Part shown: one piece after another, positions 32,013 to 36,000 of the stretch
How the letters are laid out: each line of letters starts with the position of its first letter
Numbering within the stretch: the stretch's first letter is position 1
Assembly (NCBI GenBank): GCA_017504785.1
Contig: JAFVQL010000002.1
Span: 1 to 49,323 of the forward strand
Reading direction: 5' to 3'
DNA from: Clostridia bacterium
GTDB lineage: Bacteria; Bacillota; Clostridia; Oscillospirales; CAG-272
DNA length: 49,323 nucleotides
The notes under the pieces: model-generated
What the model saw: the letters and a program-made list of their open reading frames with translations, nothing else
What the model was told of the DNA's origin: nothing
Database searches by the model: none
Position numbers and translations under genes: made by a program

Positions 32013-32843
32013 TTAATCCTTACGCACCGACCGAGCCGAAGAACGCTCCATGCGGCGGGCGATCCATATAGCCACAACAAAAATCAGAATTCCCGCAAGC
32101 GTGATGAGCGCAACTCTGCCCCACGGAACGAGCGCAAAGCCCGCGATCGCAAGCTCACCCGTCGCCTGCAATGCGCTAAAGATCACAATTACGTCGTACA
32201 CGGCGGCAGCGAGTAGCAAAACGCCGCCCGAAAGCACGGTAGCAAAGGATGCCGCCGAAATCTTCTGCGCGCGTACCACACGGCGCGGCGTGGGCGAGGA
32301 GAAATCCATCGCCTCGGAAATATAGAAGAGCACGAGAAGAAGGATCAGCGTTTCGGGGATCATGTAGGTGGCGTTATACGCCAGCGAGCCGACGAGCACC
32401 GCAGAGGTGGGGATCGTCAGTCCTGCCCAAACGGTAGCGCCGGATACCACATGACAAATATAACGCAAAACAGATGCAAGCGCCGCGCCCGAAACGAGCG
32501 CAAGGCTCTGGCTCATACCGCTCTTGCGGAACACGCCGCCAAGACCAAGCACCGCAAACGCGATCACGTAGTCAAGCAAGATCACCGCCAAAACCGATAC
32601 AAAGCCCGTCACGTAAGAGAGCGTTCTGAGGCCGAGAAGCTGCTGGATCACGCCGTATACCGTACCCGCGGCAAGTCCGTATTTTGCTCCGTGGCGGTAA
32701 GCGATCAAAACGATCGGGAGCATCGAGGCGAAGGTGACCGAGCCGCCCGCAGGCAGGTCCGCCAGCTTTAAAAGGCTCAAAACCGAGGCGAGCGCGATCA
32801 TCACGGCACTCTCCACGAGAGCCAAGGTTTTTTTGTTTTCCAT
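32013..32843 (-). CDS. thiT: Thiamine ECF transporter S-component ThiT
   Basis: Membrane protein that binds thiamine and works with a shared EcfA/A'/T module. The 276 residues hold the ThiT pattern: LVESAVMIALASVLSLLKL at the N-terminus, PIVLIAYRHGAKYGLAAGTV, and YICHVVSGATVWAG. The assignment is backed by the TPP riboswitch in its leader. An extra stretch of about 80 residues with two more membrane segments follows the usual end (family length is about 190). I start it at ATG 32843, with AGGAGG about eight bases upstream; an in-frame ATG at 32876 lies in the terminator region. Confidence 0.92.
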   Translation of the reverse strand: MENKKTLALVESAVMIALASVLSLLKLADLPAGGSVTFASMLPIVLIAYRHGAKYGLAAGTVYGVIQQLLGLRTLSYVTGFVSVLAVILLDYVIAFAVLGLGGVFRKSGMSQSLALVSGAALASVLRYICHVVSGATVWAGLTIPTSAVLVGSLAYNATYMIPETLILLLVLFYISEAMDFSSPTPRRVVRAQKISAASFATVLSGGVLLLAAAVYDVIVIFSALQATGELAIAGFALVPWGRVALITLAGILIFVVAIWIARRMERSSARSVRKD

Positions 32844-32860
32844 TTCGAAAAACCTCCTAT

Positions 32861-32895
32861 AAAAAATTCGCCACACAGAAAATATCCGTGTGGCG
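32861..32895 (-). terminator. Riboswitch-controlled terminator of thiT
   Basis: Minus strand CGCCACACGGAT pairs with TGTGTGGCG (imperfect) and AATTTTTTAT follows. It lies between the TPP aptamer and the ribosome site, so transcription of thiT would stop when thiamine pyrophosphate is bound. Confidence 0.85.
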
Positions 32896-32908
32896 AGTCT
32901 TTTATAGC

Positions 32909-32987
32909 ATCTTCCTACGACGGCATTATCCGTATCAGGTATAAGGGTTTGGAAGGTTCCATCTCAGCCTTGCGGCACCCCTGATAT
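32909..32987 (-). promoter_or_regulatory. TPP riboswitch (THI element)
   Basis: On the minus strand the conserved core is present in order: ATCAGGGGTGCC, GGCTGAGAT, ACCCTTATACCTGATACGG, ATAATGCCGTCGTAGGAAG. These are the pyrimidine- and pyrophosphate-sensing parts of the THI aptamer. It is preceded by a promoter (33011-33039) and followed by a terminator. Confidence 0.96.
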
Positions 32988-33010
32988 TATTCTGTTGTCA
33001 GCGTGATGAC

Positions 33011-33039: not shown

Positions 33040-33301
33040 GCGGTTTTTTGATTTTTTCGGTTCTGCCGCTCTTTACCTTCGGTAATTTTTTTCAGAGCAA
33101 CCCCTTTTTCGCTATATCGGCAATACAGGTATCGCAAAGGCGAAACGGCACGCCCGATCGGAGGCTTTCTCCACACAGAGCGCAAATTTCTTCGATCGGT
33201 TCAAGATAAATCCCCCGATCTAATGAGGAAAATACGATCTTACTCCCTTCTTTGATACCAAGCCGCTTTCTGTATTCGCTCGGAATCACAACGCGCCCCA
33301 A

Positions 33302-33632
33302 CGGCGACCTGCGATAAAGCAGGTCTGCCGAACGATGTTTGCCCTTACGGGCAAGTGATGTTGCCTTCGGCAATGATGTATACTGCGTAAATGATGTTAC
33401 GCCTGACGGCGTAGTGGGCAAACATCACATCGTTGCGACCATCGGGAGCAACATCATTATGAGCGAAGCGAATAACATCACTTTTTCGCAAGCAAAAACA
33501 TCATTCTTTTACCGCCCGAAAGTAAAAGGAAGTATAACACACTACACCTTGCAGGCAAGGAAGTGTGCAAAAAGGACGAGGCTTTCCTCGTCCTTTTTGA
33601 GTTGAACATAAAACTGCTTTACGGTAGGTACA
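33302..33632. mobile_element. Small non-coding MITE-like element with a nested hairpin array
   Basis: About 330 bp separate the two parts of the AbrB-type gene. The ends carry imperfect inverted repeats: ACCTGCGATAAAGCAG (33307-33322) against ACCTACCGTAAAGCAG (reverse of 33614-33629), 13 of 16 alike. CCAA flanks both sides (33298-33301 and 33633-33636), a possible 4-bp target duplication. Inside are four GATGTT/GATGTA boxes (33334, 33357, 33374, 33393) and then four AACATC boxes (33421, 33450, 33474, 33497) arranged almost symmetrically, with a different small hairpin between most neighbours (TGCC/GGGCA, GCC/GGC, ACGCC/GGCGT, CTTTTAC/GTAAAAG). No transposase is present. Confidence 0.65.
33568..33598. 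terminator. Terminator-like hairpin inside the inserted element
   Basis: AAAAAGGACGAGG pairs with CCTCGTCCTTTTT around CTTT, with A- and T-runs on both sides. It would stop transcription from the AbrB promoter before it reaches the rest of the gene, and also reading in the other direction. Confidence 0.8.
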
Positions 33633-33694
33633 CCAAACGGTCCACTTCTTTTTCTATTCCCTTCATTTTTGCGCCTCTTTCCCATTTTTTTTCT

Positions 33695-34112: not shown

Positions 34113-34730
34113 TTAAGAGGAAAGCACGAGCAGAAGCACGCCGCGCTTCACCGAAACCGTGACGGACGAGCCGAGCGCGGTATTGGAAACACCGAGGGGA
34201 AAATCGTTTTTCAGCGTACCGTTTTCCAAGGGATACGCCGCCCCCTCGATCGAAACACCCTCGCTGATCTCGGAGAGCGAAAATACGCCGAGTGCCTGCC
34301 CCGCAAGGGTATTTAAGGTCACTTCCCCATCGGAAAACGCGATCATTTTCGCATTCGCACCGATCAGGGCGGCGCGTTTTCCTTCCTTTGCGATACGGTA
34401 AAGCAGTTGCAGATTGGCAACCGTGTGATCCGCGCGGCCGCCGAGACCGCCGTAAATTGCAAAGCGCGTATATCCACGCTTTACGCCCTCAAGATAGGCA
34501 AGATAGGTATCCGTTTCGTCCTTTTTCACGGGAAAGCGGACGAGGGGAATATCGGGCGGCAGGGCTTCGGCAAGGGAATCCAGATCCCCCACCAAAAGGT
34601 GCGGTGCCTTGCCCTCGGCAAGGCAAAGGGAAAGCCCTCCGTCCACCGCGATCAAAAGATCGTTTTCTCCAATCGGCGGAAGCGCACAGCGCTCGCCCGC
34701 GCCCACAAGATAGCAGATATTTTCCTTCAT
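34113..34730 (-). CDS. thiN: Thiamine pyrophosphokinase
   Basis: Transfers pyrophosphate from ATP to thiamine, giving the cofactor TPP. The 205 residues include LLIAVDGGLSLCLAEG, LLVGDLDSL (Asp pair), FPVKKDETDTYLAYLEGVKR and IYGGLGGRADHTVANLQLL, the catalytic and nucleotide-binding segments of the family, then a C-terminal beta domain. Together with ThiT 1.3 kb away this is a scavenging route for thiamine, though this gene is not under the riboswitch. Start ATG 34730; a GTG nine bases earlier is an alternative. Ribosome site is weak; the gene follows its neighbour by 13 bp and is probably coupled. Confidence 0.92.
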   Translation of the reverse strand: MKENICYLVGAGERCALPPIGENDLLIAVDGGLSLCLAEGKAPHLLVGDLDSLAEALPPDIPLVRFPVKKDETDTYLAYLEGVKRGYTRFAIYGGLGGRADHTVANLQLLYRIAKEGKRAALIGANAKMIAFSDGEVTLNTLAGQALGVFSLSEISEGVSIEGAAYPLENGTLKNDFPLGVSNTALGSSVTVSVKRGVLLLVLSS

Positions 34731-34743
34731 AGCAAGCACCGCT

Positions 34744-36000
34744 TTAGTTTTTCAGCATTTCGTCCAGCGCGGTCATAACGCCGAGCTTTCCGTATTCATA
34801 GGTAAGACCGCCCTGCATATACGCGGTGTAAGGCGGGGTGAGAGGTCCGTCGCAGGAAAGCTCGTTGGTCGCGCCCGTCACGAAGGTGCCTGCCGCCATG
34901 ATCTCCTCGTGCGGATAGCCGGGCATCTCGCCGGGCTCGGGCACACAGTAGGCCTCGACGGGCGATCCCATCTGAATGCCGCGGCAGAAGCGAATGAGGT
35001 TTTCGGCCGTTCCGAGATCCAAGGTCTGCACGATATCGGTGCGGATCTCGTCGTAGCGGGGAGAAACCGAGGAAAATCCCGCAAGCTCCAAAATTCTCGC
35101 GGCAAACGCCATGGATTTCAGGGTGGAGCAAACGGCCGCGGGTGCCATAAAGAAGCCCTTATAGAAGGATGCAAGCTGATTGAAGTTTGCGCCGAGGCTC
35201 TTTCCGACGCAGGGTGCGGAAAAGCGCTCCGCAATATCCTCGATCACGTCGCGACGGCCAACGCAGTACGCACCGCTGACGGCAAAGCCCGCGCCGAGAT
35301 TTTTCATCATTGAGCCAACGAATACGTCCGCTCCCACCTCGGTCGGCTCGCGATCCTCGCAGAATTCGCCATAGCAGTTATCCACCATGATCACGGTTTC
35401 GGGCGATACGCGCTTGATGAGAGCGATGACGCGCTCGATCTTATCCATCGTCAAGCTCTTTCTCTGCGAATAACCGCGGCTTCTCTGAATGGCCGCCACG
35501 CGCACAAAGCTCTCCGAAAGTCTTTTTTCGATCGCGGCGTAATCAAAATCGTTATCCACGAGGTCGATCTCCTCGTAGCGTACGCCACAGGCGATCAGCG
35601 AGTTGCGGCTCTCCCCCGCCGTGCCGATAACCGAGCGAAGCGTATCGTAAGGCTCGCCCGAGATATAAAGCAGGGTCTGCCCGTATTTTAAAAGTCCGCC
35701 CAGTGTGACAGCGAGCGCATGCGTGCCCGACATCAGCTGCGGGCGCACGAGCGCGTCCTCCGCGCCGAAAACTCTCGCGTAAAGCGCCTCCAGCTTATCG
35801 CGCCCGTCGTCCGTATAGCCGTAGCCCGTCACCTCAAGAAAATCCGTTGTGGAAACGCGGCAATCGCGGAAGGCGGCAAGCACCTTTGCGGACCATTTCA
35901 TGCAGTTTTCTTCAAGCTTTGCAAACACTTCTTTGCAATCCTGCTCGGCTCTCGCGGCAAGATCGATCACTCTTTGACTGAAATTATGTCCTTCGTACAT
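34744..36000 (-). CDS. Methionine gamma-lyase family PLP protein (YnbB-like)
   Basis: A 418-residue PLP enzyme of fold type I in the group often labelled aluminium resistance protein or YnbB. Seen: LVRPQLMSGTHALAVTLGGL (near residue 85), IMVDNCYGEFCE with the PLP-binding Asp (near 205), and GSMMKNLGAGFA with the Schiff-base Lys (near 233). The C-terminal half carries GATNELSCDGPL and YMQGGLTYEYGK. Gamma- or beta-elimination on a sulphur amino acid is likely but unproved. It begins 10 bp after the HAD gene; TGAGG precedes the ATG. Confidence 0.85.
   Translation of the reverse strand: MYEGHNFSQRVIDLAARAEQDCKEVFAKLEENCMKWSAKVLAAFRDCRVSTTDFLEVTGYGYTDDGRDKLEALYARVFGAEDALVRPQLMSGTHALAVTLGGLLKYGQTLLYISGEPYDTLRSVIGTAGESRNSLIACGVRYEEIDLVDNDFDYAAIEKRLSESFVRVAAIQRSRGYSQRKSLTMDKIERVIALIKRVSPETVIMVDNCYGEFCEDREPTEVGADVFVGSMMKNLGAGFAVSGAYCVGRRDVIEDIAERFSAPCVGKSLGANFNQLASFYKGFFMAPAAVCSTLKSMAFAARILELAGFSSVSPRYDEIRTDIVQTLDLGTAENLIRFCRGIQMGSPVEAYCVPEPGEMPGYPHEEIMAAGTFVTGATNELSCDGPLTPPYTAYMQGGLTYEYGKLGVMTALDEMLKN

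Follow-up and report, generated by a model that had tools for sequence, protein, structure and literature searches.

A dispersed repeat of 333 bp splits an AbrB-type gene in the window, i.e. the whole analysed stretch of 49,323 nucleotides from a Clostridia bacterium. The repeat is probably a gene-free, non-autonomous satellite of serine-recombinase integrative mobilizable elements. Sequence comparison points to this reading through dispersed copies with defined ends, a shared core, a target preference, the resemblance of one segment to an oriT, the frame restored at the emptied site, a half-site adjoining recombinase genes, and a kinship with the Rfam family Gut-1. The element comprises, in this order, a left half-site hairpin, a ladder of boxes (33334-33502), an oriT-like sequence on the minus strand, a terminator-like hairpin and a right half-site (Table 1). 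The longest ORF entirely within the 333 bp has 88 aa, and neither a recombinase gene nor any other gene was recognised inside it.

Table 1. Positions of the element, its parts and the split gene in the window.
Feature	Position	Strand	Basis
Whole element	33302..33634	+	Ends set by 18 end pairs; copies in own genome and relatives
Core dinucleotide AA, left copy	33300..33301	n/a	End-pair comparison
Core dinucleotide AA, right copy	33635..33636	n/a	End-pair comparison
Left attachment half-site, CGGCG + ACCTGCGATAAAGCAG (33307-33322), forms hairpin	33302..33330	+	
Right attachment half-site, inverted, CTGCTTTACGGTAGGT + ACACC	33614..33634	+	
Helix P1, 5' strand GATGTTTGCCC	33334..33344	+	Pairing across 27 ladders
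Helix P1, 3' strand GGGCAAACATC, hinge of ladder	33416..33426	+	
Ladder left half, divergent Rfam RF01706 Gut-1 match	33330..33402	+	Covariance model
Left boxes GATGTT 33357-33362, GATGTA 33375-33380, GATGTT 33393-33398, with hairpin spacers in between	33357..33398	+	
Right boxes AACATC 33421, 33450, 33474, 33497, with spacers	33421..33502	+	
MobV-type oriT-like sequence	33532..33568	-	Alignment to pMV158 oriT
Terminator-like symmetric hairpin, A-run on one side, T-run on the other	33568..33599	n/a	
Split AbrB-type gene, N-terminal piece (MKGIEKEVDR)	33637..33666	-	
Split AbrB-type gene, C-terminal piece, Pfam PF04014 (MazE_antitoxin / AbrB-like)	33092..33299	-	

The initial annotation had described a mobile, non-autonomous and strongly structured insertion in an AbrB-type gene. 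This description holds, and many copies with the same ends were found. All eight reported boxes are present, the four GATGTT-type boxes starting at 33334, 33357, 33375 (GATGTA) and 33393 and the four AACATC boxes following in inverted orientation. The midpoints of the box pairs lie at about 33410-33418, in agreement with the proposed near-symmetry. The inverted repeats at the ends are real, and the hairpin taken for the element's own terminator is a perfect 14-bp inverted repeat. Folding of 33302-33632 as RNA, terminator included, gave a z of -9.1 against shuffles; for 33331-33540 alone, folded as DNA, z was -3.9 on either strand. The heptamer TGATGTT occurs nine times in the window (3.94 expected), with six of the nine within the element stretch.

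Removal of the element had been predicted to restore an AbrB reading frame. Excision of the 333 bp together with one core indeed yields a single open frame, MKGIEKEVDRLGRVVIPSEYRKRLG.... A homologue from the same genus (L506) reads MNGIEKEIDGLGRVVIPIEYRKRLG across the insertion point; the suggested comparison with an intact gene was possible with a homologue, rather than with an empty site at the same locus. In the window, Rfam models at their gathering thresholds detected a TPP riboswitch and a tRNA only. The Gut-1 match emerged solely under an E-value threshold, together with a microRNA match on the terminator hairpin (E 0.13), which corresponds to chance level. The TPP riboswitch (32895-32992, minus strand) is located 5' of a thiamine transporter gene (32013-32876), and a thiamin pyrophosphokinase gene (34113-34739) lies on the other side of the element.

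Ends, core and insertion targets

Eighteen distinct end pairs were collected with one pattern. In 17 of 18 pairs, the dinucleotides located 5 nt outward from the left and from the right half-site are identical, compared with an agreement in 0-2 of 18 at each of 12 other offsets. The exception, L117, is perhaps a chimera. For the CCAA duplication of the initial annotation, a 2-bp AA core is the better interpretation, since what is duplicated at a constant position is the central dinucleotide. An earlier end pattern had yielded 19 copies, partly overlapping the 18-pair set. Among its copies outside the 18, L095, L236 and L270 fit the core rule and L012 and L082 break it, as judged by eye; a further copy from this pattern (L183) runs into a contig end.

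The site follows the geometry half-site, 5 nt, NN, 5 nt, half-site, with half-sites that are inverted copies of each other (ACCTGCGATAAAGCAG; inverted, CTGCTTTACGGTAGGT). Consequently, a closed circle would carry a symmetric site about the 2-bp core. Of 89 distinct half-sites, a set that includes internal and solo ones, 57 have TT or AA as the core, and A accounts for 57-78% at positions -13 to -9. The base at the right end tracks the duplicated dinucleotide: C precedes AA in 8/8 cases, and T or G precedes CA in 5/5. A core that moves along with the element would produce this pattern. Inverted half-sites around a central dinucleotide were thus found, an arrangement that suggests a serine recombinase.

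In its short length, lack of recognised genes, inverted ends and dispersed copies, the element resembles miniature elements of the MITE type. An ordinary MITE would depend on a DDE transposase that cuts and pastes it and leaves short target duplications, and its oriT would be present by chance or as a vestige. This explanation is very unlikely: for the ends and the 2-bp core, a serine recombinase is a better match than a DDE transposase, the right-end base varies together with the duplicated dinucleotide, and an oriT-like sequence is present. The initial proposal of a non-autonomous transposon was correct as to mobility and dependence; it had missed the oriT-like sequence and the better fit of the ends to serine-recombinase half-sites.

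Insertion targets were reconstructed by joining the flanks with one core. Hairpins of at least 10 bp formed in 10/18 targets versus 16/306 flank-swapped combinations, and hairpins of at least 6 bp in 13/18 versus 90/306. Stems stayed below 6 bp in 5/18 targets. With their A- and T-runs, the target hairpins resemble intrinsic terminators. The window copy departs from this: its target, inside the AbrB-type gene, has a stem of 3 bp and is no terminator. The 2-bp core raised the question of RNA-guided insertion of the IS110 type; this was rejected, as by eye the targets have only A/T runs and stems in common and no sequence beyond them. Targeting in the manner of group IIC introns was discarded, since insertion falls in the terminator loops. 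IS200/IS605 elements and REP sequences are not known to have inverted ends or a duplicated core; the inverted ends and the duplicated dinucleotide core of the element set it apart from both.

Copies and candidate recombinases

In the own genome (1.52 Mb, 77% complete), 26 full or partial matches were detected, including the window copy and its terminator read backwards. Together with 39 relatives, 25 of 40 genomes contain matches. Genomes with the element belong to several GTDB families. A copy in G035, a member of another GTDB family, shares 92.5% nucleotide identity with the window copy over 334 aligned positions. One protein, encoded at 34744-36000, was used as a yardstick for transfer. Its identity is 45% in G035, 46% in the same-genus genome G008 and 80% in G007. 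The similar values of G035 and G008 leave a recent transfer not proven; the protein may not be orthologous throughout all compared genomes, and a binning error of a contig possibly accounts for the G035 copy. No match to the element was found in the plasmid collection searched. Titles and abstract openings of the literature, in partial coverage, described no such element, no terminator-targeting large serine recombinase and no oriT-bearing MITE.

A search of 394 genomes of the order for the end motif yielded matches in 36 genomes. Ends among the listed loci L391-L419 lead in some cases to ladders and in others to regulator-like genes or TnpV (identified by Pfam for one locus, by eye for the others). 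The initial annotation had proposed a search for copies next to a transposase with the same ends. Genes adjoining the half-site were found, and they encode serine recombinases; no DDE transposase was noticed beside these ends in a by-eye reading of ORF starts among the loci listed. The adjoining recombinase genes weigh further against a MITE. In L432, L433, L470 and L471, a large serine recombinase gene or a piece of one ends with its stop codon 50-60 nt before the same half-site. Pfam assigned the domains Resolvase, Recombinase, Zn_ribbon_recom and DUF4368 in L432 and L470. The L432 recombinase is a piece after an in-frame stop; the L470 frame stays open for 558 aa. Identity between the L471 and L432 pieces is 97%, and the L433 piece is similar by eye. 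The other end was not seen on the same contig at these loci, and in no locus examined did a single contig show an intact recombinase gene flanked by both ends. In L432, an exact oriT motif precedes a Mob_Pre ORF by about 0.5 kb. DUF4368 is common in a clade of multi-targeting recombinases, one example of which has a TT core and T/A-rich ends (PMC10083194).

The same ends also enclose cargo in L436, L196, L422 and L437, with no recombinase noticed. L436 and L196 have about 1.6 kb each and carry one similar helix-turn-helix regulator (HTH_3 by Pfam in L436). By Pfam, L422 encodes a MerR regulator; it also has ORFs that by eye look lipoprotein-like.

The L432 recombinase piece, used as query, matched 23/59 genomes at E 1e-20. 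In the own genome, this one query identified no intact helper recombinase and one partial match of 28% identity. Truncated copies and solo end hairpins were observed by eye (L004, L005, L106, L125). The solo left-end hairpins of L106, L125 and L394 lie inside terminator-like sequences, with no ladder or right end seen, and are perhaps remnants or a minimal insertion. Such copies and the missing intact helper match in the own genome would agree with a decayed relic, what is left of a deleted mobilizable element, with ends and an oriT that have lost their function. A relic is nonetheless highly improbable, as many copies at unrelated sites keep a length near 330 bp, both ends and the oriT, and as the element is present across several GTDB families.

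The oriT-like sequence and the ladder

The minus strand of the oriT-like stretch reads CACACTT...GCAAGGTGTAGTGTG/TTATACTT. Its local alignment to the pMV158 oriT scores 39, and the best among 396 random 50-nt pieces of the window scores 26. A nick is predicted at TAGTGTG/TTATAC on the minus strand, between 33538 and 33537; the published nick of the MobV/pMV158 oriT is TAGTGTG/TTA (PMC5090054). The element thus appears to carry a recognisable oriT of the MobV (pMV158) type. The core TATAACACAC was invariant across 11 copies chosen for alignment, an observation that disfavors the chance or vestigial oriT of a MITE. Copies with other box types diverge just past TATAACACAC. Among 42 distinct oriT matches (at most 2 mismatches), the ladder is downstream of the predicted nick in 26 and upstream in none, and 16 have no ladder by the rule used. 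From this position downstream of the nick, the ladder would lead the transferred strand into the recipient cell.

The boxes had been proposed to pair as the rungs of one long stem. Another fold has better support. Compensating changes mark a helix, P1, between 33334-33344 and 33416-33426, i.e. between the first segment and the hinge, which comprises 11 bp in the window. P1 was compared across 27 ladders that follow a left end, 26 of them with an end of the first type and one with an end of the second. It reached at least 10 bp in 24, whereas 300 shuffled partners averaged 5.5 bp with a maximum of 9. The pairing is held by differing sequences, such as GATGTTTGCCC, GATGCTTGCCC, GAAATTTGCCCA, TAAGTTTGCCC and TCTATTCGCCT. 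The box type varies jointly within a copy (GATGT, GATAT, GAAAT, GAAGT), all boxes being changed together in other copies with the long-range helix still kept. Spacer palindromes with a stem of at least 4 bp were counted in 28/70 distinct spacers versus 118/1400 shuffles, a result weaker than the impression by eye because mismatched stems remain uncounted.

The initial annotation had assigned the design to no known type. It can be related to Rfam RF01706 (Gut-1), since the left half of the ladder matches this family divergently. The match has 37.8 bits (E 5e-6), which is below the gathering cut-off of 50; the alignment spans model positions 1-77 of 77, and the three-hairpin architecture is present. 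A scan of 20 ladder loci gave matches at E 0.01 or better in 13 and none at this level in the other 7. Copies of the GAAAT type (L068 and L399) reach 66.1 and 62.5 bits, and both ladder arms match in L068, L396, L399 and L404. Judged by these matches, the ladder is a pair of inverted Gut-1-like arms. RF01706 was detected at E 0.001 or better in 163/394 genomes of the order, above the cut-off in 128. A control of 14 named genomes gave one detection, none above the cut-off. Weinberg et al. list Gut-1 among likely noncoding RNAs, found in human gut only (PMC2864571).

These results bear on a further explanation, in which the ladder is a Gut-1-type structured noncoding RNA gene that acts as RNA and only rides on mobile DNA or lies inserted beside it. 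The Rfam kinship, the listing of Gut-1 as a likely RNA (PMC2864571) and the survival of P1 pairing under sequence change would agree with it. In all 20 strong Gut-1 loci (L514-L533), neither of the two oriT motifs and neither end type was detected within the stretch tested; this also counts against a strict link between ladder and transfer. Opposed to an RNA gene are the inverted pair of arms and the occurrence of the ladder in multiple copies within genomes, with different families of ends and oriT-like sequences. On balance, an RNA gene is regarded as unlikely.

The loci L514-L533 are mostly located directly after a terminator, often that of a tRNA-like gene (by eye). In L523, a GAAAT-type ladder adjoins a GATAT-type ladder with similar tails. 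A conserved tail near GTAAGAGTTCGAATTCATACG gave 11 distinct matches, each with boxes upstream, and is possibly another end or oriT. In L139 (G153:C3), about nine TGATG-hairpin units follow one another in the same orientation as a tandem array with recurring sub-blocks, which suggests module shuffling at the boxes. Scans for a triple-box pattern gave at least 116 stretches in genome_contigs and 117 in viral_contigs, 80 of each being listed. Hairpin spacers occur in 33 of these 160 listed loci, several of low complexity and 5 of the 33 viral. Among the matches listed, most named records that contain hairpin ladders belong to Clostridia, and ruminant guts are the source of many.

A second family of ladders has a left end TAGCGTGATACTCTTAACGGAGTAT and a right end AATTCTCCGCTAAGGACATCACCC, both unlike those of the first type. 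Several of its insertions lie in terminator-like loops (by eye). The motif AAAGTGCAAGCATCGCATTTG is common to its ladders. A search with at most 2 mismatches found it in 19 of 394 genomes of the order, at 30 loci, a few of which resemble chance matches within genes. One of the 30, L473 (1 mismatch), has the motif immediately ahead of genes for MobC/NikA and a PF03432 relaxase. From the context of this one locus, AAAGTGCAAGCATCGCATTTG is a possible oriT of a second relaxase system.

Proposed mechanism and relation to known systems

The mechanism proposed for the satellite involves two proteins made elsewhere. A DUF4368-type large serine recombinase from another element would act in trans and recombine the inverted half-sites about the 2-bp core, so that the element would be excised as a small circle. 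The circle would then insert at A-tract/T-tract sites, often intrinsic terminators; here, the landing site would have been the AbrB-type gene and not a terminator. A MobV relaxase made elsewhere would nick the oriT in trans, and one strand would enter another cell, ladder first. As a weakly supported guess, the ladder may be a folded single-stranded leading-region module serving the protection, priming or processing of the entering strand.

A broader reading is doubtful and offered as a tentative idea. The Gut-1 ladder would be a single-strand entry module common to gene-free satellites of at least two conjugation systems (MobV; MobC and relaxase) and of two end types. Such a module might prime the complementary strand, protect the incoming strand or deliver it to the recombinase, and the joint change of all boxes might mark specificity for a partner protein.

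Integrative elements with an oriT and without a relaxase have been termed iOriT (PMC11389934). The element resembles them in being integrated, in carrying a predicted oriT and in its predicted dependence on the relaxase of another element. It differs in its MITE-like size of 333 bp and the additional lack of a recombinase or any recognised gene. With Tn4451-type serine-recombinase mobilizable elements it shares a 2-bp identical core and low-specificity insertion (PMC5704250), and its gene-bearing relatives contain Mob_Pre or TnpV genes; the 333-bp element itself encodes none of the Tn4451-type proteins. Multi-targeting DUF4368 recombinases offer a TT core in one example, T/A-rich target ends and many sites, but the main text describing them names no terminators as targets (0 word occurrences; PMC10083194). 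Gut-1 likewise has three hairpins separated by a repeated box, of the UGAAAU type (PMC2864571). In contrast, the element has an inverted pair of arms with the box GATGTT, is mobile and probably oriT-bearing, and scores below the family cut-off.

If the satellite reading is true, handles for both integration and conjugation would be combined on 333 bp without a gene. Intrinsic terminators would be added as a preferred target class of multi-targeting serine recombinases, and the orphan Rfam family Gut-1 would be tied to mobile DNA. The entry-module reading, if true, would help to explain the abundance of orphan Gut-1 'RNA' in this order.
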